Virus record (IMG/VR): IMGVR_UViG_3300035107_000641
Location: 1-59,488 of that record
DNA length: 59,488 bases
Reading direction: 5' to 3' (one strand)
From: a virus
The notes under the pieces were generated by a model. The model did not search any database, had not been told where the DNA came from, and saw only the letters and a program-made list of their open reading frames with translations. Shown here one piece after another: positions 25,671 through 50,151 of this stretch. Position numbers and translations under genes: made by a program. The number at the start of each line of letters is the position of its first letter. Position 1 is the first letter of the stretch.

Positions 25671-25843
25671 AACGCGCACTGTAAAGACGCACTGCGTCAT
25701 ATCCGCGAACTCGCTCAAACCCTGATATGGTGGGCTCATCCTGTGTTCACGCGGATATGACGCGGTTTTCTTTTGTTGCTCGTTGTTGTTGGTTATCGCC
25801 GGATGCCGCTATGTATTTTGTACCGTCGTTGTACCGTACAAAA
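25611..25843. other. attP: attP-like region with paired arm-type repeats
   Basis: TTGTACT at 25611 and TTGTACC at 25622 lie 11 bp apart. TTGTACC at 25818 and 25829 are again 11 bp apart in the same orientation. They flank a centre holding a 14-bp inverted repeat (25694-25707 and 25750-25763). Two sets of phased repeats flanking a core beside int is the standard attP layout. The left pair lies inside the int 3' end. The crossover core cannot be fixed without the host junctions. Confidence 0.55.
25694..25763 (+). repeat. 14-bp inverted repeat downstream of int
   Basis: GCGTCATATCCGCG at 25694-25707 and its exact complement at 25750-25763 are separated by 42 bases. The right arm is followed by GGTTTTCTTTTG on the plus strand, so it could also end the early transcript. 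Alternatively it is the core or an Xis site of attP. Confidence 0.6.
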
Positions 25844-25935
25844 TCGACGTGCTCTTCAACACCCTCCCCTCCCTGTTCGCGGTACATATCGTGCCGGGGG
25901 TGCTCGATCTGCTTGGTCGGGCGCCAAAGACAACC

Positions 25936-26343
25936 TCAGCAAATCTCGATCGTATCAGCTTCGACATCGACCTCGTACTCGGTGGTGGATGCCTCCGAAC
26001 GACATCGTTCAGCGAGCGTATACTCGATGTGCTCGAGCAAGGTGCACACGTCCTCCATCGCTTCGATCATCTCCGCGGCGCGGTGTTCTTCGAAGAGGCT
26101 GCCGCTTTTCAGCTGAGATGTGACCCACGTCGCGTTGCTCTGGATCGCGCCCAGATACGATGCGAACACGTGAGCGTCCGGGCTTCGGGCGGGTACTGAT
26201 TGCAATGCTTGGTTGCCCCTGCCCACGAGCGACAATAGCAACTCCCCACCGGAGGTGCTCTCGAGAAGCTCGCGCGCAAACTGATGTGGCTTGGTCTTGT
26301 GGGCCTGTGAACTCGGCACGCGCCAATGATTCTTCCTATCCAT
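25936..26343 (-). CDS. Hypothetical protein, 135 aa, under operator-like site 4
   Basis: A soluble helical protein with an acidic C-terminus ('TTEYEVDVEADTIEIC'). The start codon at 26343 lies 2 bases from a copy of the operator motif found at the repressor locus, so it is probably co-regulated with the lysogeny switch. The gene lies just beyond attP and transcribes back towards it. A role in prophage maintenance or exclusion is possible; no family recognised. Confidence 0.65.
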   Translation of the reverse strand: MDRKNHWRVPSSQAHKTKPHQFARELLESTSGGELLLSLVGRGNQALQSVPARSPDAHVFASYLGAIQSNATWVTSQLKSGSLFEEHRAAEMIEAMEDVCTLLEHIEYTLAERCRSEASTTEYEVDVEADTIEIC

Positions 26344-26345
26344 TT

Positions 26346-26362
26346 CTACCCCCTCTTGGTGT
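26346..26362 (-). promoter_or_regulatory. Operator-like site 4 (CTACC-N7-GGTGT)
   Basis: The same arms and spacing as the three sites around the repressor gene, 10 kb away and placed at the start codon of the gene at 26343 exactly as site 1 is at 15377. The position match makes a chance occurrence less likely. Confidence 0.5.
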
Positions 26363-26537
26363 CCTCTCCCCTAAACGGACCGTCAACGCCGAGTGTTTAG
26401 CATCTAATAACAACACCACGCTTAGAAATAGGAACGTTGGAATCTCATTTTTCTCAGTATCAAGCCGTGATCTCATGCTCGGATTGCGCTATTCTCAGGT
26501 TACAAAAACTTGGCAAGCACAACTAAAGGGGGTCGGG

Positions 26538-26858
26538 ATGCTCGAAGCAAGCTATGGCTGCAACTCGATTGTGTCATTGCAGCTCAAGACAGATGGCATC
26601 TGTCGTGAGATGCGGCGCACTGTGACACGTGACGAAGTGTTCGTGCTTTGTCGTGTGGTTTCGTGGAAACTCGTCTTGCTCATGTGCCGAACAAAACAAA
26701 CGGGGGAGTCGGGGCTGTACATACTCGTCCCCTCAGACGAGGATGCCTACCTGGTGCTCTACAACTATGCCATTAAAGGGAAGTTTCGCCATAGTCGTCA
26801 CCCCCTCGATGATAACTCACGAAAGTGGTGGAAGGACGCAGGCAAGCTCATTTGGTGA
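26538..26858 (+). CDS. Small protein A of a convergent paralogous pair, 106 aa
   Basis: ATG 26538 has AGGGGG 5 bases upstream. It shares with the opposing gene at 26861-27190 an M-L start, a 'K-x-D-G' turn, a central V-x-x-W-x-x-V-L strand and 'ILVPSDEDAYLVLYNY'. A small beta-barrel-like fold is plausible. The stops of the two genes are 2 bases apart. No family recognised; the pair suggests duplication with inversion. Confidence 0.62.
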   Translation: MLEASYGCNSIVSLQLKTDGICREMRRTVTRDEVFVLCRVVSWKLVLLMCRTKQTGESGLYILVPSDEDAYLVLYNYAIKGKFRHSRHPLDDNSRKWWKDAGKLIW

Positions 26859-26860
26859 CT

Positions 26861-27190
26861 TCATCGAAGCAGAACGTGTTCGCTCGAGTCGAATGCCTCG
26901 CGCGCCTTCTGTGCGTTGTTGATCTTCTCTTCAACGCCGAACGCACCAACCACCTTGAACGTACCGAGCGCGAGCTCGTTGTCCTCATCTGAAGGGACGA
27001 GGATGAACACCCTCCGCTTACCGCTCGAGCGCGCTGTAGTGGATACGAGCACACGACTCCAACCCGTGACATAGCCACTGACTAGGAGGTGTCTTGGCTC
27101 TGGGGTTGATCTGCTCGAGCGATGCCAGTCGCCGTCGGCCTTGACCTCGACGACCTGGTCGGCTGTAAATCCAAAGAAGAGAGATAGCAT
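26861..27190 (-). CDS. Small protein B of a convergent paralogous pair, 109 aa
   Basis: ATG 27190 has GGAGG 7 bases upstream. It carries 'FILVPSDEDNELALGTFKV', clearly related to the plus-strand gene ending at 26858. The front halves are less alike, with shared Gly, Val-x-Val-Lys-x-Asp-Gly and Trp positions. Function unknown. The C-terminus is helical and unlike that of its partner. Confidence 0.65.
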   Translation of the reverse strand: MLSLFFGFTADQVVEVKADGDWHRSSRSTPEPRHLLVSGYVTGWSRVLVSTTARSSGKRRVFILVPSDEDNELALGTFKVVGAFGVEEKINNAQKAREAFDSSEHVLLR

Positions 27191-27243
27191 GGTAGTGCCT
27201 CCATCGGTGGAACCCCGAGAATCCTCTCTGGAGGCACGCTCGG

Positions 27244-27834
27244 TCAAGCAGCTTGCTTGCGATTCGACTCACGAGCCTTGCGGAAAGCGAGCTTTGCAGA
27301 CTCGCGGTAGTCGGGAGAGGTCATCCATCCCCAGGCGAGCCGAGCGAGCTCCCAGTCGCGATCGGCCAGGGCCGACCTGAACTCGCCGAACAACTCGCCG
27401 TCATCCATGGACTTGAAGAGGAGCTTCTGTTGGTGCAAGCCGAGGTGCTTGATGCATACAGGGCCGATGCCGCTCCTGATGCTGTCCGGGTCGGTGAGTT
27501 CGCGCCCGCACTCGCGGCATGTGCACTCGACCTGGTAGCCAAACCCGTGCTTGCTGATCCAGCCTTCAGGGTTGGCCACGATCGATGCGTGAGCGCGGTG
27601 GGTCTTGTCGTCGAACTTGCGGAAGGGCTTGACCTGCCCCTCCTGGTCGACAATGGCGAAGCTCTCGAAGTCGCGCCCGACCTTCTTGGCCACCACGCGC
27701 ACCTTCTTCTTGTTGCGCTTGGGTCCCCACTTCTCGGTGCGGATGCGGTAGATCTGCACCCCGCCAGTGGCGGGGTTGGTGACGGTGAGGTGCCCGTTGA
27801 AGAGCTCGACGCTGTACTCGGTATCCGTGTTCAT
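27244..27834 (-). CDS. DUF6011-like zinc-ribbon protein, 196 aa
   Basis: Residues 105-130 carry 'CRECGRELTDPDSIRSGIGP' followed by Val-Cys, the DUF6011 signature (two Cys pairs around a Ser-x-x-x-G-I-G-P turn). The N-terminal half is beta-rich ('SVELFNGHLTVTNPATGGVQ') and basic; the C-terminal half is helical with a 'DRDWELARLAWGWM' segment. The family is common in phage and actinobacterial genomes without a proven role. Confidence 0.7.
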   Translation of the reverse strand: MNTDTEYSVELFNGHLTVTNPATGGVQIYRIRTEKWGPKRNKKKVRVVAKKVGRDFESFAIVDQEGQVKPFRKFDDKTHRAHASIVANPEGWISKHGFGYQVECTCRECGRELTDPDSIRSGIGPVCIKHLGLHQQKLLFKSMDDGELFGEFRSALADRDWELARLAWGWMTSPDYRESAKLAFRKARESNRKQAA

Positions 27835-28057
27835 GATGTTCTCCGGTAAGGAGCTATCAGGTTCCGCCTGACTCGGCCGGGGTCATGTCCCCCGCTGACA
27901 ATATTTAATCTAGGGTGGTATCAAATTTTGTGTAACTTTATTTTTATCGTATTGCGAGCAAAAAACAGTTTTCAGTCAGGGTTCCATCTTGATGTTGCCT
28001 GAACATCGATGCTATCTCTGAATCAATACACTTCATGAAAACCGCTCGGAGATCCAT
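27835..28057. other. AT-rich intergenic region before the kinase operon
   Basis: This 223-bp gap is markedly richer in A and T than the flanking phage DNA and marks the left edge of an imported island. It separates two divergent genes. TTGTGT-N16-TATTGC around 27931 and TTGATG-N18-TATCTC around 27993 are possible rightward promoters, neither convincing. GGAG lies 6 bases before ATG 28058. No gene is visible. Confidence 0.5.
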
Positions 28058-28888
28058 ATGCCGCCAGCCTTCACACCGCCTTTGTCATTGGCAGAAGTTC
28101 AAGCCGTTTTTGCTTCCGAAGGCATTCAGGTTGACGAGGTGTTGGGTTCAGGAGGGCAGGGAGCAGCGTTCAAAGCAACTGACAGTAAAACAAACAAGGT
28201 GGCTTTAAAGATTTACGGCCCGCAGACAACCCTCCCGAGAATTGAGGGGGAAATTGCCAAACTCCAAGAGCTCGATTCGCCCCATGTGGTCAAACTGTTT
28301 CAATCCGGCGACTGCCAACTCCGAAACTATCCGTTTCGTTGCCCGTATATAACACTCGAGTTTATCGATGGGCAGCCCTGCAATGAGTTGGTTGGCAGCA
28401 TAGCGAAAGAAACGGGGCAAAACCTTGACGCTGAAATATCAAAGCTCTTGTTAGATGTTGGTGATGGCCTTGATGTCATATGGTCAAAGAGGATTGTCCA
28501 CAGAGACATCAAACCCGCAAACATAATGAGATGCACTGATGGTTCGTATACCATTCTGGATTTCGGACTCGCCAAAGCTCCTGATGACGATTCAATCACG
28601 GCCACAGGGTTCGTAGTTGGTACTCCAGGATACATGTCCCCAGAACAAGCGCGAGGCGCGAGACGCCTCACGATTCGCTCAGACTTGTTTGCGCTTGGGA
28701 TCACCGCTTACTACATTGCATCAGGAGAACACCCATTCCACGGGTTCCAACACTTCATAGGAAGTGCTCGCCCCAAGCCACTCTGCGATGTTTGTGATGT
28801 AAGCCAGCGAACAGGAAGCGCCGTCGACTCCTTGCTAGAACTAGACAGAATGAACAGACCAACTTCAATCTCAAGCCTGTTAGGATAA
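28058..28888 (+). CDS. Hanks-type serine/threonine protein kinase, soluble
   Basis: A 276-residue kinase domain with every key element: Gly loop 'LGSGGQGAAF', Lys51 ('VALKIYG'), Glu65, 'HRDIKPANI' (Asp150, Lys152, Asn155), 'DFGLAKA' (168-170) and 'GTPGYMSPEQARG'. There is no membrane segment or sensor domain, unlike PknB-type host kinases. It is followed 4 bases later by a 422-residue gene of unknown family, so the two form an operon in low-GC DNA. Phage-borne kinases of this kind can act in abortive infection or superinfection exclusion; that role is inferred here. Confidence 0.85.
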   Translation: MPPAFTPPLSLAEVQAVFASEGIQVDEVLGSGGQGAAFKATDSKTNKVALKIYGPQTTLPRIEGEIAKLQELDSPHVVKLFQSGDCQLRNYPFRCPYITLEFIDGQPCNELVGSIAKETGQNLDAEISKLLLDVGDGLDVIWSKRIVHRDIKPANIMRCTDGSYTILDFGLAKAPDDDSITATGFVVGTPGYMSPEQARGARRLTIRSDLFALGITAYYIASGEHPFHGFQHFIGSARPKPLCDVCDVSQRTGSAVDSLLELDRMNRPTSISSLLG

Positions 28889-28892
28889 AAAC

Positions 28893-30161
28893 ATGTTCTA
28901 CCTGAATGTAGGTTACCACTGGGACGTATTAAGAGAAGTCAAGGACGCCATAAGAGGCGCAATCTTTTGCGCCTCTACAATCGATATGGTTGCAGCACTA
29001 AGGAGAGAGTGCGCGTTGCCAAACAAAGTTTTATTTGATCCTCAGATGTATCTGCTGGACTACGAACTCGAGCCAGAGACTCACCTCTCACTCGTGAGAC
29101 GGCTTTGCACCTACAACTTCTTCGGAATAACAAGGCCTGAGTTCAATAGCAGTGAGCAGAACCAGTCGGAATACAAACAAGGTTTGTCCGAAAACCTAAA
29201 CGAGATCTGGAAGAATAAATCACCTCACGATCGCATATGGGGTGATTTGGTAGAAGCCGCAATCGCATTCCAAAAACTATTCGGCGTATCAAGTTATATT
29301 TTGCCATCAATCTTGATACGAGACCCAGAAGATAACTTGGATAGGTTCTTTAATCGGTTGGATGAGGCATCACAACACATACCAGATGACAAGCCTACGT
29401 ACATCTCGGTAGCGCTCAGTGAAGCCGCCATGGCTCATAAACCGGCCTCTGAAAACGAGCTGTTAGCATCCCTTGCAGATGAACTAACTGCGCGACCTGA
29501 GATCAAACATGTCTATATAGTTTTAGCATCAGAGTCTTCGAATAGCATTCGACACCTTAACCCAAATGCAATTGGTGGCTTTCTTGCTCTCACTAAGTTG
29601 CTTTCGGAAAACAAGATAGATGTTCTGGTGAACTTTGCTGAATCGCTCGGGATAGCTGCGTTAGGCTTTGGAGCTGGGGGTTACGGTGCAAGCTACTACA
29701 ATAAAGGAAGGGCGCTGAGGTTGTCTGACTTTGTAGAAACAAAAGGTCGCGGCGCTTACCCTAATTTCCATTCAACCCATTTGGCAGTCGATTTCGAAGC
29801 CGAAAACGATTTGGTGAAAGTTAGAGATTGCCATTTGTTGAAGTGCCTGAAAGACAGTTGGACTCCTGCTTCAAAAAATCTAAAAAAAGCTCTTGAAGCA
29901 GGGCAATCACCAGCAGTCATACCAGGTTGGGCCAGAACAAAGAACAACACTAAACTTGCTAGGATGCAATTTGCTCACGGACACAGCAAAATGGGGGACC
30001 GCAAATGGACTCCTTCAGATGTATTAGACTGGTTACAAAACGCTGAAATGATCACAGATTATATTGACAAAAAAACAAGCAACAATCCGATGTCATATAA
30101 GTTCAAAACAGCACATCTCAAGGTGTGGAGAAAGTCTGTTGAAGATCTGGTTAACTTGTAA
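28893..30161 (+). CDS. Unknown 422-aa partner of the kinase
   Basis: Translated 4 bases after the kinase stop. The middle and C-terminal halves alternate hydrophobic strands and helices, with a Gly-rich segment 'LGFGAGGYGASYYNKGRALR', which recalls a TIM-barrel-like enzyme. No catalytic signature is certain. It may be the effector that the kinase controls or its substrate. The C-terminus runs 11 bases into the opposing nuclease-like gene. Base composition matches the kinase gene and not the phage backbone. Confidence 0.72.
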   Translation: MFYLNVGYHWDVLREVKDAIRGAIFCASTIDMVAALRRECALPNKVLFDPQMYLLDYELEPETHLSLVRRLCTYNFFGITRPEFNSSEQNQSEYKQGLSENLNEIWKNKSPHDRIWGDLVEAAIAFQKLFGVSSYILPSILIRDPEDNLDRFFNRLDEASQHIPDDKPTYISVALSEAAMAHKPASENELLASLADELTARPEIKHVYIVLASESSNSIRHLNPNAIGGFLALTKLLSENKIDVLVNFAESLGIAALGFGAGGYGASYYNKGRALRLSDFVETKGRGAYPNFHSTHLAVDFEAENDLVKVRDCHLLKCLKDSWTPASKNLKKALEAGQSPAVIPGWARTKNNTKLARMQFAHGHSKMGDRKWTPSDVLDWLQNAEMITDYIDKKTSNNPMSYKFKTAHLKVWRKSVEDLVNL

Positions 30162-30927
30162 ACCACTCGTCTTTTTGGTGGCGAGCCATGTCCCAAAGCA
30201 ATCTCAGCCTCATATTATTAATTTGGTCCCGCGCATTTTTGGTAGCGCGGGGTCGTACGAGTTTGAATATTCGACCTGACTGATCAAGTACCGCAAGTCC
30301 CAATCCTCTCTCTTTGCATTCCTTTCTCAGTTCGGAGTTTTCACGCTGCTCATCTGGCATTATAACCCAGGATCGATCTGACTTTTGTGCGTAAACAGCA
30401 GCTTGTATGATCGCTTGTCGCCAGTCATACAACTTGGCCTCAAACGCCACCACCTCAGATGGTAAGATGCAATGCCAATCACCAGCTGCCAACGCCATAC
30501 CTGATTCTGTTCTTGTAATCAGGTGATGGCGTTCCATCTTTCTGGTGATTTCTTTCACCTTATTTAGGTCGCTCCACGTTCTCGATGCCAAAGTCTCGGC
30601 CTTGAGAGGTCTGGGCACCAACTGCGCCATATAAAACAAGTCCGATTGTTTGACTTGTCTAAATGGCTTCAACCTTTTTTCACTGGGTGGAGGATTTTGA
30701 AATCTGGCCAAAACTATGTCAGCTATCCGACCACCGAAGTCGACTTCAAACCTATATTGAAAAGTGCCGGGTTGAAGCAGAAAGCTACCCAAATGAGGAA
30801 TGAAAGCTGTCACCAATTCTTTTTCGCTCAAAAAAGTCACGATTGAATCCAATGAGGGGCGGCAGAAGCTTTCAGATATGCTGTTTGGTTGTTCAGTGTA
30901 GGTCTTGCCTGCGCAAAACACAATCAT
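30151..30927 (-). CDS. PD-(D/E)XK nuclease-like protein, 258 aa
   Basis: A convergent gene overlapping the end of the kinase operon. 'FEVDFGGRIADIVLARF' (Asp70) followed about 90 residues later by 'VVAFEAKLYDWRQAI' (Glu163, Lys165) fits the D...E-x-K core of restriction-type nucleases, with a helix carrying Gln after it. A winged-helix-like segment lies between them ('VKEITRKMERHHLITRTESG'). It may be the DNA- or RNA-cutting arm of the same island or an independent defence gene. The assignment is by pattern. Confidence 0.62.
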   Translation of the reverse strand: MIVFCAGKTYTEQPNSISESFCRPSLDSIVTFLSEKELVTAFIPHLGSFLLQPGTFQYRFEVDFGGRIADIVLARFQNPPPSEKRLKPFRQVKQSDLFYMAQLVPRPLKAETLASRTWSDLNKVKEITRKMERHHLITRTESGMALAAGDWHCILPSEVVAFEAKLYDWRQAIIQAAVYAQKSDRSWVIMPDEQRENSELRKECKERGLGLAVLDQSGRIFKLVRPRATKNARDQINNMRLRLLWDMARHQKDEWFTS

Positions 30928-31096
30928 ATGACGATCGATTAACGATCGCTTGAGCTATTGCATTTTTGACAATATGTGTTAGTGGCCAAACAGGTCAAGC
31001 ATCAGCCTGGTGCAAATCTCACACGACCACGCAACATCTCCATCGACACGCCCGATAACCTCCATGAGCGCAATCCCGCGCACCACGGAGGTTCCC

Positions 31097-31318
31097 ATGC
31101 ACCCCAACGATCAAGACGGCCTGAAGCAAATCACCGAGGAGCTGCTCGCGTGTGGCGTCCACCTGGACGAACCACGCGAGCCACTGGAGGTGGGCATCCT
31201 CGAACCCACCGAGGACATGGCGCCGCGTGAGCCTCGCGCTCGACGGCCAAGCCGGTGGTGCGACAAAAAATCTGGTAGACAGTTGATCTCTTATGCTTGG
31301 TGCGGCAGGCTTGACTGA
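31097..31318 (+). CDS. Small protein, 73 aa
   Basis: GGAGG lies 5 bases before ATG 31097. The first 50 residues are acidic and the last 20 basic with Cys and Trp ('RWCDKKSGRQLISYAWCGRL'). It stands alone in a short gap between island genes. Function unknown. Confidence 0.48.
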   Translation: MHPNDQDGLKQITEELLACGVHLDEPREPLEVGILEPTEDMAPREPRARRPSRWCDKKSGRQLISYAWCGRLD

Positions 31319-31352
31319 ACGAACGAGCAGCTAACAACACAGGAGGTTAGCC

Positions 31353-31622
31353 ATGGAAGAGGATTACACGGTCATTTATGAAGATGCGGATTTCCAACCA
31401 ATGGAGGCATACGACCGCGAGCAAACGAAATACATACGGGTTGCCGTACCAGGAGAGCTCATCTTGATGACCCATCTGAGCGGTGGACTCCCTGGATTCA
31501 ATGCCATTTACACTGGAAGTACAGACCATCCTGCAGGGCCATTTGAAACGGTCTTGGGTTGCACTGATCCCGAAGTGGCGATCCAACGTGCAGTCGACTG
31601 GTACGCTACCATCGCCAGATGA
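31353..31622 (+). CDS. Hypothetical acidic protein, 89 aa
   Basis: GGAGG lies 6 bases before ATG 31353. The protein is acidic and probably mixed alpha/beta ('TKYIRVAVPGELILMTHLSG'). It overlaps the tail of a minus-strand relict gene by 17 bases. Family not recognised. Confidence 0.6.
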   Translation: MEEDYTVIYEDADFQPMEAYDREQTKYIRVAVPGELILMTHLSGGLPGFNAIYTGSTDHPAGPFETVLGCTDPEVAIQRAVDWYATIAR

Positions 31623-31842
31623 CCACGCTACCACCAGCCACGCACGCGCCAGCGCCACCCACGAGCTTCCAATCCCGCTGACTCGCGCCGTACCCTGCGA
31701 CTGCTGAGCAGATCACCACAGCGGTCCACCCCACCACCGCCCCCCGCGACATCCTGCTCTTCTCCTCGTGTAGCTCGAGCTGCAAGCGGAGCACTTCATC
31801 CTGGGCGGCCTTCTTTTCGCGCGTGAGGGCCAGCGAGCAGGT
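31606..31842 (-). pseudogene. Probable 5'-truncated relict of a membrane lysis-type gene
   Basis: The minus-strand frame is open from a TAA at 31843-31845 to its stop at 31606. It reads as a coiled coil ('KKAAQDEVLRLQLELHEEKS') followed by two hydrophobic segments and a basic tail. No good start codon with a ribosome site exists at its head; only a GTG at 31794 is available. The coil-then-membrane-segment design resembles the gene at 33669-34103. I read it as the 3' remnant of a lysis-region gene cut off by the island. Confidence 0.42.
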
Positions 31843-32091
31843 TTATCTCGTACATCATTGGAGCCAAGATAGGTTCTCCCTTCCTGCCGTTGGCACCCAT
31901 CCTGACAAGGCTCGCGCTTCTTTATCTTCTTGATGCAGTCGGAAATTTACGTAAACTCGAATGAGTCAAATTAATTTATTGCGTCTGGAGTTCTCGTTAG
32001 TGCCACTGGCTGGCACTTTTGATTTCAAGTTCCTTGGTCAATTGTTTGTAAAGTTGGACTTATCTAACCCATATCCGAGCAAGGATTATGT

Positions 32092-32676
32092 ATGAGCGAT
32101 GAAAAGTCGTATCCCGATACTGAGAATGCGACGCCAACCAATAAAACCCCGAAAAGAGCGATGGTAAATGGCAAGCCTGTGCGTGTTGGGGAAGACTTGG
32201 ACGATGCCCATAGGGAACTGACTGAGTACTTCATGCAGATCAATGATGAAGCAGGAGTGTACGAAGCAAATCCGTTGATGAGCCAAATCCACGACAAATT
32301 AGAGCGATTGGCACACGAGGGCACTCCCAAGCGTATCGTACTCAGCCATCGTGGGTTGCTTGTTATGGGTTCTTGGTACCCAGAGCATCGTGCAGATGAA
32401 CTGTCCGAAGCAATGACCTCGGGTCGGTTTACGGAGACCTTTTCGACTGCTGACCAAGTCAACATTCTTATGCAAGGTTTTCATTCACTGGCAACCCAAG
32501 TTTTGCAAAACACGAATCATGCTCTCCGAACCGAGGATAGTGAAGATCGGCAAGATGCATGTGACACCGCCATTCGTCTTTTGCGAGTGATTGGCGATCA
32601 GGTTGATGCGCTTGTTCGTCAGGTTGATTTTGTTAAACAGGGACTCCACTTGGAGGACGAAGAGGGGGCAAAATGA
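32092..32676 (+). CDS. Hypothetical cytosolic protein, 194 aa, of a two-gene module
   Basis: AAGGA lies 6 bases before ATG 32092. The protein is acidic and helical throughout, with a His-rich spot ('RIVLSHRGLLVMGSWYPEHR') and no membrane segment. Its stop overlaps the start of the lipoprotein gene, so the two are made together. Low GC and opposite orientation to the lysis genes mark it as cargo. Function unknown; superinfection exclusion is a fair guess. Confidence 0.65.
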   Translation: MSDEKSYPDTENATPTNKTPKRAMVNGKPVRVGEDLDDAHRELTEYFMQINDEAGVYEANPLMSQIHDKLERLAHEGTPKRIVLSHRGLLVMGSWYPEHRADELSEAMTSGRFTETFSTADQVNILMQGFHSLATQVLQNTNHALRTEDSEDRQDACDTAIRLLRVIGDQVDALVRQVDFVKQGLHLEDEEGAK

Positions 32677-33608
32677 AGGTTTTGAAAATTGCCATGTTCC
32701 TCATGTTCTGCATGGCGTTCTGCGGATGCGAAGGCGATAAACCTACAACTTGGATGGAAATCATCAGTCTCGGAGTAAGCATCTGCGCCGCTCTTGCGAG
32801 CGCGGTATCACTGTATTTCGCCGGCAGATCGGCGACTGCGGCGGAGACGTCTGCCAACGCCGCCAAAGAAACTGCACAGATTGAAAAGGATTGGTTGGAG
32901 AGGAATGTTAACATCTCACAAAATTATGTGGAACCAAGCGGACATGAAGTGCCAATTGGAGGTTTGGGTTTCAAGATATCAAACCCGCATCGTTCACTTG
33001 TTTGGGTTGAGGAACTTCGCGTGTGTTTCGGTGATGTGGTTTACGCCAAAAGTGACCAGGCAGATGGTTGTCTTACAATTTTGAGAGGTGGAGGCAGCGC
33101 GCGTGGTGCTCTCGGTCGGAGAATCGAAATGAGGAGCCTCGCCTTCCATAATCCCCCGTTTCTCTTACAACCAGAGGATCAGATCGAGGGCTTGTTTCAC
33201 CTCGATGCTATTCTTCCTCTGTTTTTAGAAAGTCTCGGCGAGATCAGTGAGTTTGCTCCGGTGATTGAGGCAAGAATAAGACACCGCGAAGGGTGGGTCA
33301 AAGGGGCTGCTCAAACTCTAAACCTTCGAGAATTGGCCAAGGCTTTAGAGGAATACGAAGCGACTCGAGAAGAACTCCAGCGGTCTGACTTGGCCAAGGA
33401 GTTGGCCAAAGAATTGAAGGGGGCCAAAAGCGGGTCGGCAATCAGCGAAAGACTTGAGCAGGTAATGGAGGAGCACGGTGCAGACGTTGGAGCTCTGGTT
33501 GTCAGGGCACTGAATGCTGCGAAGGCGGAGCCGGAAGAGGCCGCTATGACCGGGAGTGAATCAATAGCCGAGTATCTGGGTTCAAGAAATAGATCAAGCA
33601 ATGAGTAG
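32673..33608 (+). CDS. Lipoprotein/membrane-anchored protein, 311 aa, of a two-gene module
   Basis: The N-terminus 'MKVLKIAMFLMFCMAFCGCE' is a lipoprotein signal with a lipobox ending at Cys. A second hydrophobic segment ('ISLGVSICAALASAVSLYFA') and a helix follow. A beta-rich middle and a long Leu/Glu coiled coil (about 215-290) complete the protein. Together with the upstream cytosolic protein it could sit at the envelope. No family recognised. Confidence 0.66.
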   Translation: MKVLKIAMFLMFCMAFCGCEGDKPTTWMEIISLGVSICAALASAVSLYFAGRSATAAETSANAAKETAQIEKDWLERNVNISQNYVEPSGHEVPIGGLGFKISNPHRSLVWVEELRVCFGDVVYAKSDQADGCLTILRGGGSARGALGRRIEMRSLAFHNPPFLLQPEDQIEGLFHLDAILPLFLESLGEISEFAPVIEARIRHREGWVKGAAQTLNLRELAKALEEYEATREELQRSDLAKELAKELKGAKSGSAISERLEQVMEEHGADVGALVVRALNAAKAEPEEAAMTGSESIAEYLGSRNRSSNE

Positions 33609-33668
33609 CGAACAGCCAGTTTTCAGCCAGAACAAGAGCAGCGTTACGCGTCGAAGCCAACCCATCTT

Positions 33669-34103
33669 TCACTCCTTCTCGCGCTCGCGCTTCCACTGGT
33701 GCGCTCTCCCGCCCGCGTACCCGAGCACAAACACGCCGACGAGGATCACGAGCACCTTCTTCCAGGTCGGCCTACGCGCGAGCTCCTCGAGTTGTTTTCG
33801 CTGCTGCTCCTTCTGCGCGCCGCAGCTCATCGCCTCCCTGTGACAGGAGCGCTCCTTGAGCTCGAGCGCGCCCTCGAGCGCGCTGATCTCGCCCGCGCGA
33901 AACTCGGCGCACATGCTCGCGCGACGCATCGCACGCGCCGCGCACTCGCGCTCGGTCTCGCTCTCCTTGCAGCGGGTGGGCTCGCAGTTCTCAGTCGTTG
34001 GACGTGTCCCACCACTGGCTACCGGGGGGGACGCCCTTGTGGTCGCCGGGTGTGTCAGAAAGGTGGCCATCAGTGCGAATGTCATCAGGTGGCGGCGCGT
34101 CAT
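33669..34103 (-). CDS. Spanin-like protein with signal peptide and C-terminal membrane segment
   Basis: A 144-residue protein. Residues 1-24 form a Sec signal ('HLMTFALMATFLTHPATTRA'), residues 30-105 are a Cys-containing coiled coil, and 'KKVLVILVGVFVLGYAGG' near the end is a membrane segment followed by a basic tail. This is the topology of single-protein (unimolecular) spanins that link outer and inner membranes, though no lipobox is visible. It overlaps the preceding gene in another frame, which is common in spanin loci. The position at the end of the lysis cassette supports the call. Confidence 0.55.
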   Translation of the reverse strand: MTRRHLMTFALMATFLTHPATTRASPPVASGGTRPTTENCEPTRCKESETERECAARAMRRASMCAEFRAGEISALEGALELKERSCHREAMSCGAQKEQQRKQLEELARRPTWKKVLVILVGVFVLGYAGGRAHQWKREREKE

Positions 34104-34419
34104 CGATTACCTCCGAGAGGTCTTTTGTGGGGGTGGGGGCGGGACGAAGAGGAGGCTTGACCTTGACCTCCGTGACAAGCCCCGGACCTGTCTCCTCCTC
34201 GAGCCCTTGCGGTTCACTCTTCTCATCTTCTTCTTTGCTTCCCCCCCTCTCCCACAGCTTCCCCCCGAGCAGGGCAGACAGCAGCGCGGCGAGCACGCCG
34301 AGGGCCTTGGCGAGCAGGGTCTTCCCCTGGATAAGCATCACGACCATCAAGGTCAGCGACACCAGGACGAGCCCGACGAGCGCCAGGTCACTCCAGGCCA
34401 GCAAGATCAACTCGTTCAT
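33991..34419 (-). CDS. Holin-like membrane protein with long Pro/Asp tail, 142 aa
   Basis: ATG 34419 has GGAG 8 bases upstream and overlaps the receiver gene stop. Two hydrophobic segments ('LVGLVLVSLTLMVVMLIQG' and 'ALGVLAALLSALLGG') are followed by a charged, Pro-rich soluble tail of about 90 residues. Size and position fit a small holin or antiholin, though the tail is unusual. The last 113 bases overlap the spanin-like gene in a different frame. Confidence 0.58.
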   Translation of the reverse strand: MNELILLAWSDLALVGLVLVSLTLMVVMLIQGKTLLAKALGVLAALLSALLGGKLWERGGSKEEDEKSEPQGLEEETGPGLVTEVKVKPPLRPAPTPTKDLSEVIDDAPPPDDIRTDGHLSDTPGDHKGVPPGSQWWDTSND

Positions 34420-35330
34420 GGCGCGCTCTCCTTTTTCAAAAGCCTCGCCCACTCACAGCGCAGCGTGTCCACCAGGGGAGCCGAGGCGTCTTCGGTGATC
34501 TCGCCCTTGACCAAATAGCCCTTCGCGCCGAGCTCCAGCGCGCGCGCCCTCGTCTCCTCATCGCCCAGGCCCGACAGCACCCAGATCGTGAGGTCGGCCA
34601 GTTTCTTCTCCGCGCGCACTTGCTCGAGCACCTCGAGCCCGCTCATGTCCGGGAGTTCGAGATCGAGCAGCGTGATGTAAGGGCGCTCGAGCGCGCCCGA
34701 GCGCATCAGCGTCAAGGCTCCCACCCCTGTCTCGGCCACGGCGATCTTGTGCGCGACGTGGTGCCGCCGGAGGCTGCGCAGCAAGTGCTTGCGGTCGGCG
34801 CTGTTGTCCTCGACGAGCAGCACGTTTAGGGACGCGAGGTTTGTCACGAGGTCCTCCTCGCTCTGCGCGACGTCACTCGTGATCTCCTCGAGCGTGAGCG
34901 GCACGGGAATCCCCGGCATCGACTTCGAGCGCTTGCGCCCCGCGTCCGCCTTCTCCTCTTTCGTGTGCTTCTCGCGGTGCACCCGATCGAGGATGGCGCT
35001 GATCTGTTCGGGGTGCTCCTCGGCGAAGTAGAACCCGTCCAGCACGCGGTCATGCTCGCGCAAGATCTCATTGCGTTCGTCCTTGACCTCCTCGAGCTCC
35101 TGGCGAAGTTGCTCGATCTCAGCCTTGTGCTTGTCGCGATCCGTCTCGCACTTCTCCTTGTACGCGTCGCGCTCCTTGCGCAGCTCGGCGTTCTGCGTCG
35201 TCTCGCTCTCCTCGAGCTCCTTGACGCGTCCTCCGAGCAAGGCAAACAGCTTGTAGAAGAAGCCGGTGACCGCGAACATCACGCCGGCGATTCCCCCGAT
35301 CTTGGCCCCGTTAACGATCCAGTCGTCCAT
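34416..35330 (-). CDS. Membrane-anchored response-regulator receiver protein in the lysis cassette
   Basis: A 304-residue protein. One N-terminal membrane segment (about 11-33) leads into a coiled coil (35-95), a charged linker, and a complete CheY-like receiver domain (168-285). The receiver has Glu174-Asp175 in 'LLVEDNSADR', phosphoacceptor Asp223 in 'LLDLELPDMSG', Ser253 in 'WVLSGLGD' and Lys275 in 'GYLVKGE'. All residues for phosphorylation and switching are present. It lies between genes for four-helix and two-helix membrane proteins, downstream of the endolysin gene. I infer that a host phosphorelay could time or gate lysis. Confidence 0.85.
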   Translation of the reverse strand: MDDWIVNGAKIGGIAGVMFAVTGFFYKLFALLGGRVKELEESETTQNAELRKERDAYKEKCETDRDKHKAEIEQLRQELEEVKDERNEILREHDRVLDGFYFAEEHPEQISAILDRVHREKHTKEEKADAGRKRSKSMPGIPVPLTLEEITSDVAQSEEDLVTNLASLNVLLVEDNSADRKHLLRSLRRHHVAHKIAVAETGVGALTLMRSGALERPYITLLDLELPDMSGLEVLEQVRAEKKLADLTIWVLSGLGDEETRARALELGAKGYLVKGEITEDASAPLVDTLRCEWARLLKKESAP

Positions 35331-35754
35331 GGCGACCTCCGGTCTCTAGAGCATGCTCGAAGCAGGCAAACAACGCCGTCAGCATCGCGGTGCCGTACAT
35401 CGGCGTGGAGGTCAGTGACCAGGAGAGCGACCCGAAGGCCCACGCCACACAGGCCCACCAGGTCACGATGAGAAACAATGCTGGGATCTTGACCGGGTGG
35501 AGCTTGCGAAACAGGGAGACGAGCAAGAGCAACACCCCGAGCGCGAGCGCCAACCCGCCCGTCACGCGCGACCCGCCCACGAACAGGGTCCACGCATACA
35601 GCCTTGGAAACTGCACATCGAGCGGCGGGTGCGCCATGATCATCACTATCCCCCAGCCGACGAGCTGGATGATCAGGATCACATCCAGCGCGCGTAGGCG
35701 ATCCGGGGATCGGCGCATCCAAAAGAAGAGAAGTTTGGCGGCATACGCGCGCAT
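35311..35754 (-). CDS. Four-helix membrane protein, 147 aa (holin candidate)
   Basis: GGGAG lies 6 bases before ATG 35754. The protein is mostly hydrophobic with about four membrane segments ('VILIIQLVGWGIVMIMA', 'GGLALALGVLLLLVSLF', 'FLIVTWWACVAWAFG') and a basic N-terminus. It overlaps the receiver gene by 20 bases. It could be the holin or a receiver partner in the membrane; the family is not recognised. Confidence 0.58.
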   Translation of the reverse strand: MRAYAAKLLFFWMRRSPDRLRALDVILIIQLVGWGIVMIMAHPPLDVQFPRLYAWTLFVGGSRVTGGLALALGVLLLLVSLFRKLHPVKIPALFLIVTWWACVAWAFGSLSWSLTSTPMYGTAMLTALFACFEHALETGGRHGRLDR

Positions 35755-35769: not shown

Positions 35770-36051
35770 CTAGGGTTCGATTTTGGCCTCGGCATTCCCC
35801 GCCTTCACCGAGAGCCCCGCGTAGTGCTTGACCCCGAGCAGCGTGATCGTCCCGAAGCCCGCGAGCGCCGCGCCGATGGCGGCGACGTACACGAGCGGCT
35901 TCACGTCCGCGTCGAGCTGCGCTCCGAGGGCCGCGGCGAGCACCGCGCCAGCGGCCAGCAAGGCGATCAGTCCCCCGATGAGGATCAGGAAATAGCCAGC
36001 GCGCTCGTGCGCCTGGTCAAACGGCTTCTTGTCGTCTTCTTTTCGCGTCAT
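35770..36051 (-). CDS. Two-helix membrane protein, 93 aa (holin candidate)
   Basis: Starts at ATG 36051, overlapping the endolysin stop. It has a charged N-terminus, then 'FLILIGGLIALLAAGAVLAA' and 'LVYVAAIGAALAGFGTITLL' as membrane segments and a short charged tail. Small size, two segments and position right after the endolysin gene make it the best classical holin candidate. Confidence 0.65.
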   Translation of the reverse strand: MTRKEDDKKPFDQAHERAGYFLILIGGLIALLAAGAVLAAALGAQLDADVKPLVYVAAIGAALAGFGTITLLGVKHYAGLSVKAGNAEAKIEP

Positions 36052-36686
36052 GCCTTCCACCTCGCTCCAAACAGGAAGGGGGAGTCAGGGCTACCCGGAT
36101 CCTTGCGCGCGCGCCGAAACACACGCACTGGCGCCGGGAAAGCGCCCACGTTCCCTTCGATCGTGTAAATCCATGCGTCGTCCACGGCTGCGATGACGCA
36201 GATGTGTCCTGACCAGTCGTTGTTCGGGTCTTTGTCTGCGTCCGGCCCGTCACGGTTGTTGACGAGCAGGTCATCCGGCGCGAGCTCGAAGGGATCCTCG
36301 ATCGCCGGATTCCCGCTCTCCTTGACGACCGCGAGGCCGAGGCGGCGCGCGCCGATCTTGTAGGGCGTGCCAGGGCCATACGCGCGCTCGAGCCAGGTGG
36401 ACGAGCTCCCCGCACACCACAGCCCCGGTCCTCCTCGCATGTAGCCTCGCACCCATGGTCCGTCATTGCGGGACCCTTCTTCCTGGGCGCCAGCGAGCAG
36501 GTCTTTAAGAGCTTCCTTCGCGATCGGCGTGGTGATCACGTCCGGGTCCAGGTAGCGCCCGCCTTTTGTCAGCTTGCCCGCGATGCCGTCCTCAGCGAGC
36601 GGGCGCCCGCGATGGTCAAAGCCCATGCGCTGCAAGATGGCGGTGTCCGTGATCCTCTTCGAGATCTCGGTGTAATCGATCAGCAT
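36048..36686 (-). CDS. Endolysin with CHAP-like peptidase domain
   Basis: ATG 36686 has AAGGAGG 5 bases upstream. The 212-residue protein has a CHAP-type layout: Cys91 in 'LWCAGSSSTWLE' opening a helix, His161 in 'DWSGHICVIAAV', and the Glu/Asn pair in 'IYTIEGN' (Glu177, Asn179). CHAP enzymes cut peptide bonds in peptidoglycan. There is no signal peptide, so export needs a holin, and three membrane proteins follow in the same operon. The N-terminal 60 residues are extra and may aid wall binding. Confidence 0.75.
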   Translation of the reverse strand: MLIDYTEISKRITDTAILQRMGFDHRGRPLAEDGIAGKLTKGGRYLDPDVITTPIAKEALKDLLAGAQEEGSRNDGPWVRGYMRGGPGLWCAGSSSTWLERAYGPGTPYKIGARRLGLAVVKESGNPAIEDPFELAPDDLLVNNRDGPDADKDPNNDWSGHICVIAAVDDAWIYTIEGNVGAFPAPVRVFRRARKDPGSPDSPFLFGARWKA

Positions 36687-45940: not shown

Positions 45941-46019
45941 TTTTCTCACAACGATGGAGTTGTTTAAACCTACCAACCCATGGGCACGCCAGCAACAAAC
46001 ACTAAACGCAAGATCAGTT

Positions 46020-46040
46020 TTGGCACCATTTAGGTGCCAA
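46020..46040. promoter_or_regulatory. Palindromic operator of cassette 1
   Basis: TTGGCACC and its complement flank ATTTA, ending 8 bases before the cassette 1 -35 box. A four-T run follows, so a terminator is possible, but no plus-strand gene lies upstream. A binding site for the cassette's own ribbon-helix-helix protein is more likely. Confidence 0.5.
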
Positions 46041-46048
46041 TTTTGGCA

Positions 46049-46077
46049 TTGACGGCGTTATTGTTCGTGCGTAGAGT
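46049..46077 (+). promoter_or_regulatory. Promoter of cassette 1
   Basis: TTGACG and TAGAGT with a 17-base spacer. The predicted RNA start near 46084 leaves a leader of about 350 bases before the first gene at 46433. Confidence 0.6.
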
Positions 46078-46083
46078 TGTAAG

Positions 46084-46432
46084 TGGAAGGCAGACGAACA
46101 TCAATGACGTGACCGAGCCTTCCCACCAAACGATCCCTGTTCTCCATCCACATAAATTCTCACCCGGCAAGATGTCGGTGAGGTGGAGCCCACTCCGCGG
46201 ATCGAACGGTGTCACGCCAGAAATGGCGGCAACTGAAAAAGAAGACGTTTTAGCTTCTGAACCAATTATCGCAAGCCCTTGGAGTACAGAGGGGCAACTG
46301 CTTGGCGGATGTTGGCGACAGGAGCGGAGAGAAACCAGATGGAAGATACCCATTTGGACTGTCCGCTTGTCGTGAACTTCCGTGGGATGAATCCCGCGAC
46401 ACGCGCGGACGCATCCCACGAGGAGTTGAACG
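46084..46432 (+). ncRNA. Long structured leader of cassette 1
   Basis: About 350 bases without a convincing gene. A short reading frame inside has no ribosome site. Its 3' part (46307-46405) matches the leader of cassette 2: shared 'GACAGGAGC' and 'TCGTGAAC' blocks and a hairpin at 46381-46398 (CGTGGGA, loop TGAA, TCCCGCG). The stem differs in sequence from its partner at 48535-48550 but stays paired. Possibly a regulatory RNA or translational control element. Confidence 0.5.
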
Positions 46433-46741
46433 ATGAGCGAGCAGGACAACACACAGCTTGAGCCCTACAACCCATCAGACGCTTGCCCTGTCTACAGCGG
46501 GGTCATCGACGCGCAAACATCACACGAACTCGCCAAAGGCGGCGGCGTGGTCAAGGTCTTGCACCTGATCTCGCGTAGTCCTGGTGCACCCATTCTTTGG
46601 GTGTGTGTGGTGATTGTTGTGATGGTGTTCGCCAAGGTTCTCACGACTTACTACTTCACGTGGTTGGTCGTAATCGGGGCGTGGGGCGCCTGGTGCCAGA
46701 GGGCCAACAGGAAGGTTGGCACACATGGCAACGAACAATGA
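46433..46741 (+). CDS. Cassette 1 membrane protein, 102 aa
   Basis: GAGG lies 8 bases before ATG 46433. A polar N-terminal half is followed by 'ILWVCVVIVVMVFAKVLTTY' and 'YFTWLVVIGAWGAWC', probably two adjoining membrane segments. It overlaps the RHH gene by 17 bases. Its counterpart in cassette 2 has the same order and topology but little sequence identity. Function unknown. Confidence 0.65.
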   Translation: MSEQDNTQLEPYNPSDACPVYSGVIDAQTSHELAKGGGVVKVLHLISRSPGAPILWVCVVIVVMVFAKVLTTYYFTWLVVIGAWGAWCQRANRKVGTHGNEQ

Positions 46742-46949
46742 AACGGTCAGACTGAACCTTCGCATCACGCCAGATGTGAAGACGCGGCTCGAGGAGCTCA
46801 AGGACGAAACCAACTCGGCCAATCTGGCCGAGGTGGTTCGTCGCGCCTTGACGCTTTACGACGCGATGTACAGTGAAAGCAAAGACGGGAGCAAAGTCAT
46901 CCTGCGAGATTCCGAAGGGAAGGACAGGGAGGTGATGCTCATTTTTTAA
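46725..46949 (+). CDS. Cassette 1 ribbon-helix-helix protein, 74 aa
   Basis: ATG 46725. 'NETVRLNLRITPDVKTRLEE' and 'SANLAEVVRRALTLYD' form a classic ribbon-helix-helix fold (strand, helix, turn, helix). A short beta C-terminus reads 'SKVILRDSEGKDREVMLIF'. RHH proteins bind palindromes as dimers; the palindrome upstream of the cassette promoter is the obvious target. Paralogous to the protein at 48936. Confidence 0.82.
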   Translation: MATNNETVRLNLRITPDVKTRLEELKDETNSANLAEVVRRALTLYDAMYSESKDGSKVILRDSEGKDREVMLIF

Positions 46950-46960
46950 ACGGAGATACC

Positions 46961-47962
46961 ATGGCCAAAGGCCGGAAACGAAAGACGCCAAAGAATATTC
47001 GGAACACCCTTCTCGGGGACCGAAAAAAATTCGATCAAAGCAAATTCAGCAACGCAAACCCCGAACTCACAGCGGCCTTGCTCGAGCGCATCGAAGAATG
47101 GGAGCAGCTCGAGCGCGATACGGGTGAGATCAAGAGCGAAGAGATTTTCGATGAACAGTCGCTGACCCCTCTGCGCGATTGGGGCCAAAACTTTCCGCCA
47201 CTCAGAGAGTGGCCAGAGGACATACTTGATCGAGACAACGTTTTCTTCGACGTTTGGTCTGCGGCTATCGCAGCCCAAGCATGTTTTGGGCAATCGAGAT
47301 CGCGCGCTGCCATCTTGCAGAAGATGGAGGATATTACGCAGCCAGATCATTGGACCGTAAAATCCTTCCGCGAGGAAGATTTCGTCTTGGTCCTTCCACT
47401 GCTCGAAACCTTCCTCGACGCCTACTTGGAGGACGAGATTCTTTGGCTTGCTGGTTTGAAATCTGCTCTTTACACATTCCTCTTGGTGTTTGGTCCAGAA
47501 TTTGACCTTAACAAATATGCAGCTGCTTGGTTGGGGGGAAGATCTACCGAACGAGAAAATGATTACGCGCATGGATCTTTCCAAGATATGTCCTCGCGAA
47601 CATTGGACACGCTCCGCTTACCCTTGGTTACTGGCGGTGGAAATCTCTCTAGTGCCCGGCAATTTGCTATCAATCAAGGAAAGCATCAGCTGGGGCAGTT
47701 CCGTGAATTGCAAGAGTCCCTCGAAAAAACAAAACGCTTGGCTGGGGCTAGAGATTTGGAATCTTTTAGATCTGTTGTCGAAACCAATAGATCACTGGGG
47801 CAAGTTCAAGAAGCCACCCGAACATTGGACAGGTTGAAGCGCAGTACCCCTTTGGGTGCTTCTTTAAACTTCCGCGATCGGCATGCTTTAGAAGAGTTGA
47901 ACGAATACAATCGACTCATGCAGCAACTGGACCCTACGGGTAGGCTACGAAAATTGAAGTGA
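46961..47962 (+). CDS. Cassette 1 large protein, 333 aa
   Basis: GGAG lies 5 bases before ATG 46961. It has a basic N-terminus ('MAKGRKRKTPKNIR'), then a helical body with Trp/Glu-rich segments and no membrane span. The C-terminus 'EYNRLMQQLDPTGRLRKLK' is nearly the same as in the cassette 2 counterpart, while the rest has diverged. Probable effector of the cassette; no family recognised. Confidence 0.68.
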   Translation: MAKGRKRKTPKNIRNTLLGDRKKFDQSKFSNANPELTAALLERIEEWEQLERDTGEIKSEEIFDEQSLTPLRDWGQNFPPLREWPEDILDRDNVFFDVWSAAIAAQACFGQSRSRAAILQKMEDITQPDHWTVKSFREEDFVLVLPLLETFLDAYLEDEILWLAGLKSALYTFLLVFGPEFDLNKYAAAWLGGRSTERENDYAHGSFQDMSSRTLDTLRLPLVTGGGNLSSARQFAINQGKHQLGQFRELQESLEKTKRLAGARDLESFRSVVETNRSLGQVQEATRTLDRLKRSTPLGASLNFRDRHALEELNEYNRLMQQLDPTGRLRKLK

Positions 47963-47964
47963 TT

Positions 47965-48140
47965 TCACTCCAAGAGTTTCTTGAGCGCATACCCCGCGCG
48001 CTCGAGCCCCTTCGCCGTGAGCTCGTCGACGGCCACGAACTTCTTATCAAACCGCCTCTCGAACACGTGCACCGCGCCTTGCGCCCCTGCCTGCGCGCGC
48101 TGCAACCCCACTTCGGCGATCGTCTGAAACACAGGCAACA
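47965..48140 (-). pseudogene. Duplicated 3' end of the baseplate hub gene
   Basis: This 176-base stretch matches the last 58 codons of the hub gene at 50154, in frame and with the stop. I count about 14 base differences, of which about 11 are silent; residue changes are Ala/Val, Val/Ala and Leu/Phe. There is no start codon and the rest of the gene is missing. The silent bias says the fragment evolved in a working hub gene before it arrived here. Confidence 0.88.
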
Positions 48141-48158
48141 CAAATGTTCAGTTTTTAT

Positions 48159-48187
48159 TTGACCCGTGCGGCAAACGTGAGTACATT
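48159..48187 (+). promoter_or_regulatory. Promoter of cassette 2
   Basis: TTGACC and TACATT with a 17-base spacer. The -10 overlaps the first of three GTGAGTACA repeats, so binding there would block transcription. The RNA start near 48194 leaves a leader of about 400 bases. Confidence 0.62.
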
Positions 48188-48228
48188 TGTGAGTACAGGA
48201 CGTGAGTACAAATGTACTCACGTCCTGT
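48177..48228. promoter_or_regulatory. Operator array and 34-bp palindrome of cassette 2
   Basis: GTGAGTACA occurs at 48177, 48189 and 48202, and its complement at 48213. Bases 48195-48228 form a perfect palindrome with 16-base arms around AA. Repeats on a 12-13-bp spacing over the -10 and start point are typical of RHH repressor sites. The sequence is unlike the cassette 1 palindrome, implying different specificities. Confidence 0.65.
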
Positions 48229-48595
48229 GCAGGGCTCATGAGTCTGTCCCCCAAAGGGGGGCAGGTTTACTCCAAAGGAGACAGCGAGCCCACTGCCTTT
48301 GTTCGTGTTAGTTCTATCCCCCGTCGTGGCAAGAGGCCCGTTGGGAGATGCTTCTCCTGCGCGGATAACAGAAGGCAATTTGACGACCGAAGAAGCCCGA
48401 AATTTTCCTGAACGCCGCATCCGGGATTGAAGAGCTGAAGAGGGAGAAGCTCGCCCGACAGATGTTGACGACAGGAGCAGAAAGGAAACCAAGTGGGTAA
48501 TTACCACCTGGCCTGCCTGCTCGTCGTGAACATCCGTGGTGTTGACCACGCGACACGAGAGATCGCCGCAGGTCAGCACCACAGGATGAACAACG
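48200..48595 (+). ncRNA. Long structured leader of cassette 2
   Basis: About 400 bases without a gene. It holds a hairpin at 48244-48264 (CTG-CCCCC, loop AAA, GGGGG-CAG) and the part shared with cassette 1 (48462-48557). That part includes the hairpin at 48535-48550 (CGTGGT, loop GTTG, ACCACG). The conserved blocks and paired changes suggest selection on RNA structure. Confidence 0.5.
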
Positions 48596-48997
48596 ATGAA
48601 CCAAAAGCAGCAGACCAGTAAACAAAAAGAGACCAATCAAACCAAGCCGCTGACCATGGATTCGGTCGATGCCATCTACAAGGATGGATTCGACGCCGAC
48701 GTTCAGGTCGAGCAAGACCTCGTGAATCGAGGTGGCCCTTTGACGCGAGCGGGAGTTCTCGCCTCGCGAACATTCAGGTTCGTGATGCTGATGTTGATGA
48801 ACGGGGTTGTACCCTGGATTTGCCTCAGCTTCATCACACTGGGCTGTCTCGACAAACTGGAGTGGTGGCACGTGCTCGCGCTGACGTGCATCGCGCTTGC
48901 GCAGCTTGCCTTGGTGGGGTCTGGAGAAACAAGCCATGGGCAAAAAAGACATCCGAGTCAACCTGCGCCTCTCCAAGGAGGTGAAGGATCGACTTGA
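48596..48997 (+). CDS. Cassette 2 membrane protein, 133 aa
   Basis: ATG 48596 lacks a strong ribosome site. A Gln/Lys-rich N-terminus leads to 'RFVMLMLMNGVVPWICLSFI' and 'WWHVLALTCIALAQLALVG', two membrane segments. The C-terminus is polar and overlaps the RHH gene by 62 bases. It occupies the same slot as the 46433 gene. Confidence 0.62.
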   Translation: MNQKQQTSKQKETNQTKPLTMDSVDAIYKDGFDADVQVEQDLVNRGGPLTRAGVLASRTFRFVMLMLMNGVVPWICLSFITLGCLDKLEWWHVLALTCIALAQLALVGSGETSHGQKRHPSQPAPLQGGEGST

Positions 48998-49157
48998 AAA
49001 AGCATGTGAGCGCTCAGGCGCGGGCACCTTGAGCGATACGATTCGCCAAGCACTCGTCGTCTATGATGTGCTCTTGGAAGCGACGAGTTCTGGGAAGGAG
49101 TTGGTCCTCAAAGGAGAAGACGGTTCAGAGCAGCCTGTTTACCTTGCATTCAAGTAA
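48936..49157 (+). CDS. Cassette 2 ribbon-helix-helix protein, 73 aa
   Basis: ATG 48936 has GGAG 9 bases upstream. 'DIRVNLRLSKEVKDRLEKAC' and 'TLSDTIRQALVVYDVLLEA' give the RHH fold, and the C-terminus 'KELVLKGEDGSEQPVYLAF' matches cassette 1 in form. It probably binds the GTGAGTACA array and represses its own cassette. Confidence 0.82.
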   Translation: MGKKDIRVNLRLSKEVKDRLEKACERSGAGTLSDTIRQALVVYDVLLEATSSGKELVLKGEDGSEQPVYLAFK

Positions 49158-49167
49158 GAGGAGTAGC

Positions 49168-50151
49168 GTGAGCGATCGAGGCAAGAAGAAGAAGCGAAGA
49201 AGCCGTAAAGCAAAGGTCCCGCAGTTGCGAGGAACAGAACTCGTCAAGGATCCAAAGTTACGGCGATTCAATTTCAATCGGTGTTCCGATGAGCAACTCC
49301 ATGTGCTTATCGGAACCTTCGATGCTTGGCGTAACCAAGATTCTACGACTCACGTTGAAGCCTCCTTGAGTGATTACTGGCGCACATTCAGCACAATAGC
49401 AGTCACAAGGATGGCAGAAACTCAAGCAAATCCGCCTGTTGTGGAAGACATGACGTTGGAGGAACTTGAGGGTTTTGGATTCCTTCTCGCCAGCCACAAA
49501 AACGTTGTTGATTTGACGGAAGGCAAGAGTTTCTCAGCATCTATTGATAACCAATACAGGCTCTTGTTCTACAACAAAGTTGGTTGGAAATCTGTTGCGT
49601 CTTCGACAGGAGAAGAGTTTTTCTCCTCTTTGGTGAAATGCTACCAGCACGGAAAACGATATGTCTTCGAACTCATCATTGAGGATGATTACCTTGATCC
49701 AAAACCTGAGGGCGATACAAGCAGGTCTGGTCGAGACATAAGTACGTGGGGAGAGCTTCTCGCGCGTATAGACGTACTTTCCAAGCAATTGATGCTGCCG
49801 AACTCTGATAACCTGATGAGTACCACAGAGCTTGCCTCTTCACTGACTGCAAAAGCTGCATCGACAATGTTGCGGCCTGCCTCAAAAACCCTTCTGGAAC
49901 AAGCAAAACATGCAGAAGGCACGGGGTTGCTCAATACGATGAAGCACTTACGTAACGCAGAGGCGCACCTGATGGTGTCGAATACCAAGGAGTTGGAGCC
50001 TGTGAACTCTTCACTTCGCATGGCTTTGGCAGGCATGCATTCCCCTAGACGGCTGGGCCTTGTAGATACAATGGCGCGGGAGCATCTCGAGCAATACAAC
50101 CGGCTCATGCATCGGCTAGACCCTACGGGCGTGTTGCGAAATTTGAAGTGA
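49168..50151 (+). CDS. Cassette 2 large protein, 327 aa
   Basis: GTG 49168 has GAGG 6 bases upstream. It has a strongly basic N-terminus ('RGKKKKRRSRKAKVPQLRG'), then a helical and beta-containing body with Ser/Thr-rich helices. The end 'QYNRLMHRLDPTGVLRNLK' is shared with cassette 1. The gene stops 2 bases before the convergent hub gene stop. Probable effector; no family recognised. Confidence 0.68.
   Translation: MSDRGKKKKRRSRKAKVPQLRGTELVKDPKLRRFNFNRCSDEQLHVLIGTFDAWRNQDSTTHVEASLSDYWRTFSTIAVTRMAETQANPPVVEDMTLEELEGFGFLLASHKNVVDLTEGKSFSASIDNQYRLLFYNKVGWKSVASSTGEEFFSSLVKCYQHGKRYVFELIIEDDYLDPKPEGDTSRSGRDISTWGELLARIDVLSKQLMLPNSDNLMSTTELASSLTAKAASTMLRPASKTLLEQAKHAEGTGLLNTMKHLRNAEAHLMVSNTKELEPVNSSLRMALAGMHSPRRLGLVDTMAREHLEQYNRLMHRLDPTGVLRNLK

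Follow-up and report, generated by a model that had tools for sequence, protein, structure and literature searches.

What is a complete response-regulator receiver domain, tethered to the membrane, doing among the lysis genes of a bacteriophage? It has long been asked how phages fit the timing of lysis to the state of the host, the known inputs being the holin clock, the membrane energy state and superinfection. The window, by which we mean the whole 59,488-base IMG/VR virus record analyzed here, reads as a temperate myovirus according to PHROG matches to terminase, portal, sheath, tape measure, baseplate and integrase genes; its late genes lie on the minus strand and terminate in a cassette at 36686-33669. 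The first-pass annotation had found in this cassette a protein combining a membrane helix, a coiled coil and a receiver, and proposed that the host's phosphorelay state gates lysis through it. If this proposal is true, a cassette receiver would constitute a direct molecular wire from host signaling to lysis.

The open reading frame at 34416-35330 was confirmed, with its strand corrected to minus; it has a GGAGG ribosome-binding site and encodes 304 amino acids. The C-terminal receiver domain (residues 166-304; 34419-34835) matches Pfam PF00072 far beyond chance (E 1.7e-16; score 60.8 bits, cut-off 30.2), and the full set of phosphorylation residues, namely the acid pair Glu174 and Asp175, the phosphoacceptor Asp223, Ser253 and Lys275, is present at exactly the positions first assigned, with Lys275 lacking the usual following Pro. 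The AlphaFold (AF2) model of the whole protein, built from an alignment of 20 sequences, has an overall pLDDT of 84; in the C-terminal domain the pLDDT is mostly above 90, strands alternate with helices, and the fold matches CheY (5chy, TM 0.84), Rcp1 and the Deinococcus phytochrome response regulator, which bears out the expected CheY-like structure. The N-terminal part agrees with the earlier prediction as well: hydropathy, which is the only basis for the membrane assignment, indicates a single hydrophobic helix at about residues 11-33 (35232-35300), also helical in the model, and a long charged helix at about residues 34-129 (34944-35231; mostly pLDDT >90; D/E/K/R 57% over residues 34-98) is the predicted coiled coil. 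Each of the three parts of the protein has a third-codon-position GC content of 0.86-0.90, with phage-like codon use throughout, and this uniformity makes 34416-35330 read as one gene.

Two more familiar identities were considered for this protein. Pfam finds no output domain, DNA-binding or otherwise, in the window protein, in which the receiver itself is C-terminal, and a PhoB/OmpR-type transcription factor was dropped for want of a DNA-binding domain. The helix and coil recall an Rz-type i-spanin, but the best PHROG spanin match has an E-value of 0.58, and this reading is disfavored because no lipoprotein was seen in the window cassette and the charges weakly favor a cytoplasmic C-terminus, in a pattern weaker than that of the split proteins described below. 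No close homologue of the full-length protein was found in viral contigs; the fused form is a single known example from one uncultured phage.

The cassette is real, although its members are divergent and several matches are weak, and the lysis setting first assigned to the gene is upheld with that qualification. All six genes lie on the minus strand in a tight operon, in which adjacent genes overlap, in several cases through an ATGA and once by 20 bases, and ribosome-binding sites are good. The first encodes a CHAP-like endolysin (36048-36686) with a sub-threshold Pfam CHAP match (E 0.047), Cys91, His161 and Asn179 kept in relatives, and an 81% homologue in L082; its structural model is weak, and the best fold matches, mostly CHAP endolysins, are on their own not significant. 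A two-helix holin-like protein follows (35770-36051; called from hydropathy, 86% in L082, weak match with E 6e-4 to the endolysin-holin fusion of G003), so that both the endolysin and holin calls combine weak matches with relatives. Next come a multi-helix membrane protein with no assigned function (35311-35754, from hydropathy), the receiver protein, a helix plus Pro-rich protein (33991-34452) and a signal-peptide plus C-terminal-helix protein (33669-34103). Translation of the Pro-rich gene probably begins at the ATG at 34419, where this start and the receiver gene stop overlap as ATGA; the layout in G003 is identical. The label "spanin-like", as applied to cassette genes, denotes architecture alone.

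The window contains other features of note. A low-GC island (25671-33668; 0.51 against 0.63) lies between the integrase and the lysis cassette and includes a Ser/Thr kinase gene (28058-28888) matching PADLOC PD-T4-6 (E 6.8e-45); the island is possibly defense cargo. A short open reading frame at 31606-31794 matches the spanin-like protein encoded by the G119 prophage in its C-terminal helices, at 43% identity, and may have been left behind by another lysis cassette. A second low-GC island (45977-50151), unannotated, lies within the tail genes and carries small plus-strand genes in what appear to be two copies of one set (46433-47962 and 48596-50151).

Searches with terminase, portal and sheath found no close kin of this phage. 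G001 has most early genes in common with the window, mostly at 83-100% identity; a CsrA-like gene, recognized by eye at 19878-20081, is only 48% identical to its G001 counterpart, against 83-100% for most neighbors. The G001 cassette runs from an endolysin (81%) and a holin-like gene (86%) to a 97-amino-acid helix-coil protein. In G003, a single protein joins a homologue of the window endolysin to a holin-like part (PHROG endolysin E 1.4e-4; C-terminal part PHROG holin E 1.1e-3), and then come a receiver-less helix-coil protein and Pro-rich and signal-peptide genes that overlap as they do in the window. The prophage contig of the bacterial genome G119 has an endolysin with 43% identity and, further downstream, a receiver-less helix-coil protein. 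None of the 48 related viral records has a receiver, with the G001 contig stopping right after the helix-coil gene. The readable relatives place a helix-coil protein after the endolysin, the receiver having been added only in the window; the helix and coil of the window protein resemble the helix-coil proteins in architecture alone, with no sequence match. G119 turned up in a search of the phylum to which a deltaproteobacterial MAG belongs, so the host of the window phage may be of the same group.

Although the receiver searches brought up no second fusion, they did yield adjacent split pairs, in five groups of Alteromonas phages. Viral matches in Foldseek led to Alteromonas phage V22, and later searches used receiver similarity alone, so that gene neighborhoods were not selected for; receiver matches in unannotated metagenomic or host-like records, the majority in the phage collection, were excluded from the count. 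The five groups (V22, A5, PB15/XX1924, H4/4-R8W and R9Y2) span different morphotypes, and each has a stand-alone receiver in a lysis cassette, with holin, endolysin or spanin genes beside it and, immediately upstream, the gene for a small protein of single-helix, coiled-coil type. Cassette identity was established by PHROG or Pfam lysis genes and, in A5, by an annotated endolysin. In V22, a papain-like amidase is followed by helix-coil ORF29, receiver ORF30, Rz-like spanin ORF31 (PHROG spanin E 7e-6), a nested lipoprotein and two-helix ORF32; its IMG/VR relatives L208 and L210 keep this order, as do L211 and the schitovirus A5 without the amidase. PB15 and XX1924 have a four-helix protein (in the window, too, a multi-helix gene lies near the receiver), a coil-then-helix protein, the receiver, an M15 peptidase (PB15) or PHROG 1501 protein (XX1924), and a holin; the coil-then-helix protein of PB15 matches the PHROG "hemolysin" (E 1.8e-16). 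The order is class II holin, single-helix protein and receiver in H4/4 and R8W, and single-helix protein, receiver and endolysin in R9Y2. The helix-protein stop and receiver start are a few bases apart or overlap by 4 bases, the annotated receiver start of PB15 being set late.

The pair of small helix protein and receiver represents the window protein in split form and in an equal gene order, save that in PB15 and XX1924 the small protein has its helix at the C-terminal end. Most split helix proteins have positive charges after the helix, which favors a cytoplasmic C-terminus. Each phage has one receiver, and no histidine kinase ATPase domain was found above the Pfam cut-off in any phage of the set. 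The receivers of My-WqHQDG and Bhz63, however, are counter-examples, being sited away from lysis genes. As further observations on these cassettes, in V22 (L204:14168-15039) and A5 (L212:6410-7305), V22 gp31 and A5 gp12, both listed as unknown in the literature, look like Rz-type spanins with nested lipoprotein genes, a PHROG match backing this only for V22 gp31, and V22 gp32 and A5 gp13 are two-helix and holin-like.

The phosphorylation site has been retained across considerable divergence. All ten phage receivers, like that of the window, have Asp175, Asp223, Ser253 and Lys275, with Asp or Glu at position 174; Ser253 is common to all of these, whereas most aligned bacterial relatives have Thr. 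The dN/dS ratio is about 0.06-0.2 where measurable. One receiver alignment and one helix-coil alignment proved too divergent for scanning. In two trees, the window receiver falls inside the clade of Rcp1-type single-domain regulators (support 97/94 and 100/97), a placement to be read with caution given its long branch of about 1.2 changes per site, along which the active site is intact. The Alteromonas phage receivers cluster together (98/97), apart from the window receiver, which suggests two recruitments, although long branches may distort the tree.

We lean toward the view that the window protein is a lysis regulator that reads host phosphorylation, a membrane-anchored coiled coil carrying a receiver that is probably cytoplasmic. 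In the phage without a kinase of its own, a host histidine kinase or acetyl phosphate would be the donor to Asp223; the phosphorylated receiver would then alter the dimerization or exposure of the membrane-proximal coiled coil, which in turn would promote or restrain the neighboring holin or spanin in the manner of an antiholin or lysis regulator. Lysis would thereby come earlier or later according to the physiological state of the host, in a direction that cannot be told from sequence. The proposal that the host phosphorelay gates lysis is strengthened by the receivers of intact chemistry in the lysis cassettes of five Alteromonas groups and by the lack of any phage kinase above cut-off, the functional effect itself being what we infer. 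One rival is that the gene is a late-expressed decoy or auxiliary gene, whose receiver acts on a membrane-located host kinase, by drawing off its phosphate or by binding it, and alters host behavior, its place among lysis genes being a by-product of the late operon. Intact receiver chemistry with no output domain would suit such a role, which is also close to the published reading of the Alteromonas relatives as auxiliary metabolic genes. We nevertheless consider it unlikely, since a host-takeover gene would be expected early, whereas the receiver gene lies at the end of the late operon, and since all five Alteromonas groups, with their varied morphotypes, have the receiver in the lysis cassette beside a membrane-helix gene.

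Receivers can also serve as dimerization modules, and this one, linked as it is to a coiled coil and missing the Pro after Lys275, might simply dimerize, or bind the holin, the endolysin or a spanin of the cassette, with phosphorylation irrelevant. Every active-site position has nonetheless been kept across large divergence in two separate lineages, which is more than a pure scaffold would need, and we regard this explanation as quite improbable. Poorer still are the prospects of a mere passenger, in which a host receiver would have become joined to a cassette gene recently and by chance, without selection for any function. The Rcp1 type to which the receiver belongs is common in bacteria, and G003 and the G119 prophage do without one, but the long branch with its active site intact, the phage-like codon use of the whole gene and the overlap of both gene ends with neighbors all argue against it. 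With the same parts recurring in other lysis cassettes, we consider the genomic case for a lysis-timing regulator good, and these findings suggest that some phages may couple lysis timing to host signaling. More tentatively, there might exist a so far unrecognized class of lysis control, arisen at least two times from different bacterial receivers, in which the host phosphorelay or acetyl-phosphate state sets holin firing through a receiver that is either separate from a membrane coiled-coil protein or fused to it. Culturable phages with this pattern are available in Alteromonas V22, A5, R8W and R9Y2, where the gene is filed as metabolic.

The first-pass annotation knew of no established lysis protein of this design, and among searchable papers this holds for the fused form; the parts, in split form, were already present in sequenced phages. 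The CheY-like genes of V22 (gp30), A5 (gp11), R8W (g48, called PhoB) and PB15 resemble the window gene in encoding a single receiver with a full active site in a lysis cassette, but they stand alone and belong to another receiver lineage, whereas the window receiver is fused and Rcp1-type. In the portions of PMC7289586, PMC10579305 and PMC8228385 available to us, within a literature scope of open PMC papers, the Alteromonas receivers are presented as auxiliary metabolic genes, as PhoB or as part of a host-recognition module, with no link to lysis, and V22 gp31 and gp32 are left as unknown in PMC10579305. R8W g48 (L217:3992-4453) is 153 amino acids long, and the receiver fills most of this length, which leaves no room for a PhoB-type DNA-binding domain. 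The Rcp1-type regulators, cyanobacterial Rcp1 and the Deinococcus phytochrome response regulator, have a receiver that is alike by sequence, fold and tree, but they are soluble bacterial signaling proteins without the membrane helix and coiled coil to which the window receiver is fused.

Three further systems invite comparison. RoeA, a PhoB-family regulator, is tied to a phage-like lysis cassette of Yersinia entomophaga (PMC10101115), but it acts transcriptionally from a bacterial locus outside the cassette and is not a membrane protein, unlike the membrane-tethered window protein within its cassette. For T4 holin T and its antiholin RI, PMC12642591 describes a single-helix holin whose soluble domain receives a signal that sets lysis time; there, a periplasmic domain takes its signal from a protein antiholin, whereas a phosphate signal is proposed here. 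The nearest mechanism is that of the N4 pinholin gp63, a single-helix lysis protein whose cytoplasmic regulatory region, termed "Receiver", has been proposed to take a timing signal (PMC12642591). The shared name is a coincidence and was set aside as a precedent for receiver-controlled lysis: the N4 region is close to the helix, is not described as a CheY domain and has no known phosphorylation site, whereas the window protein carries a receiver of CheY fold.
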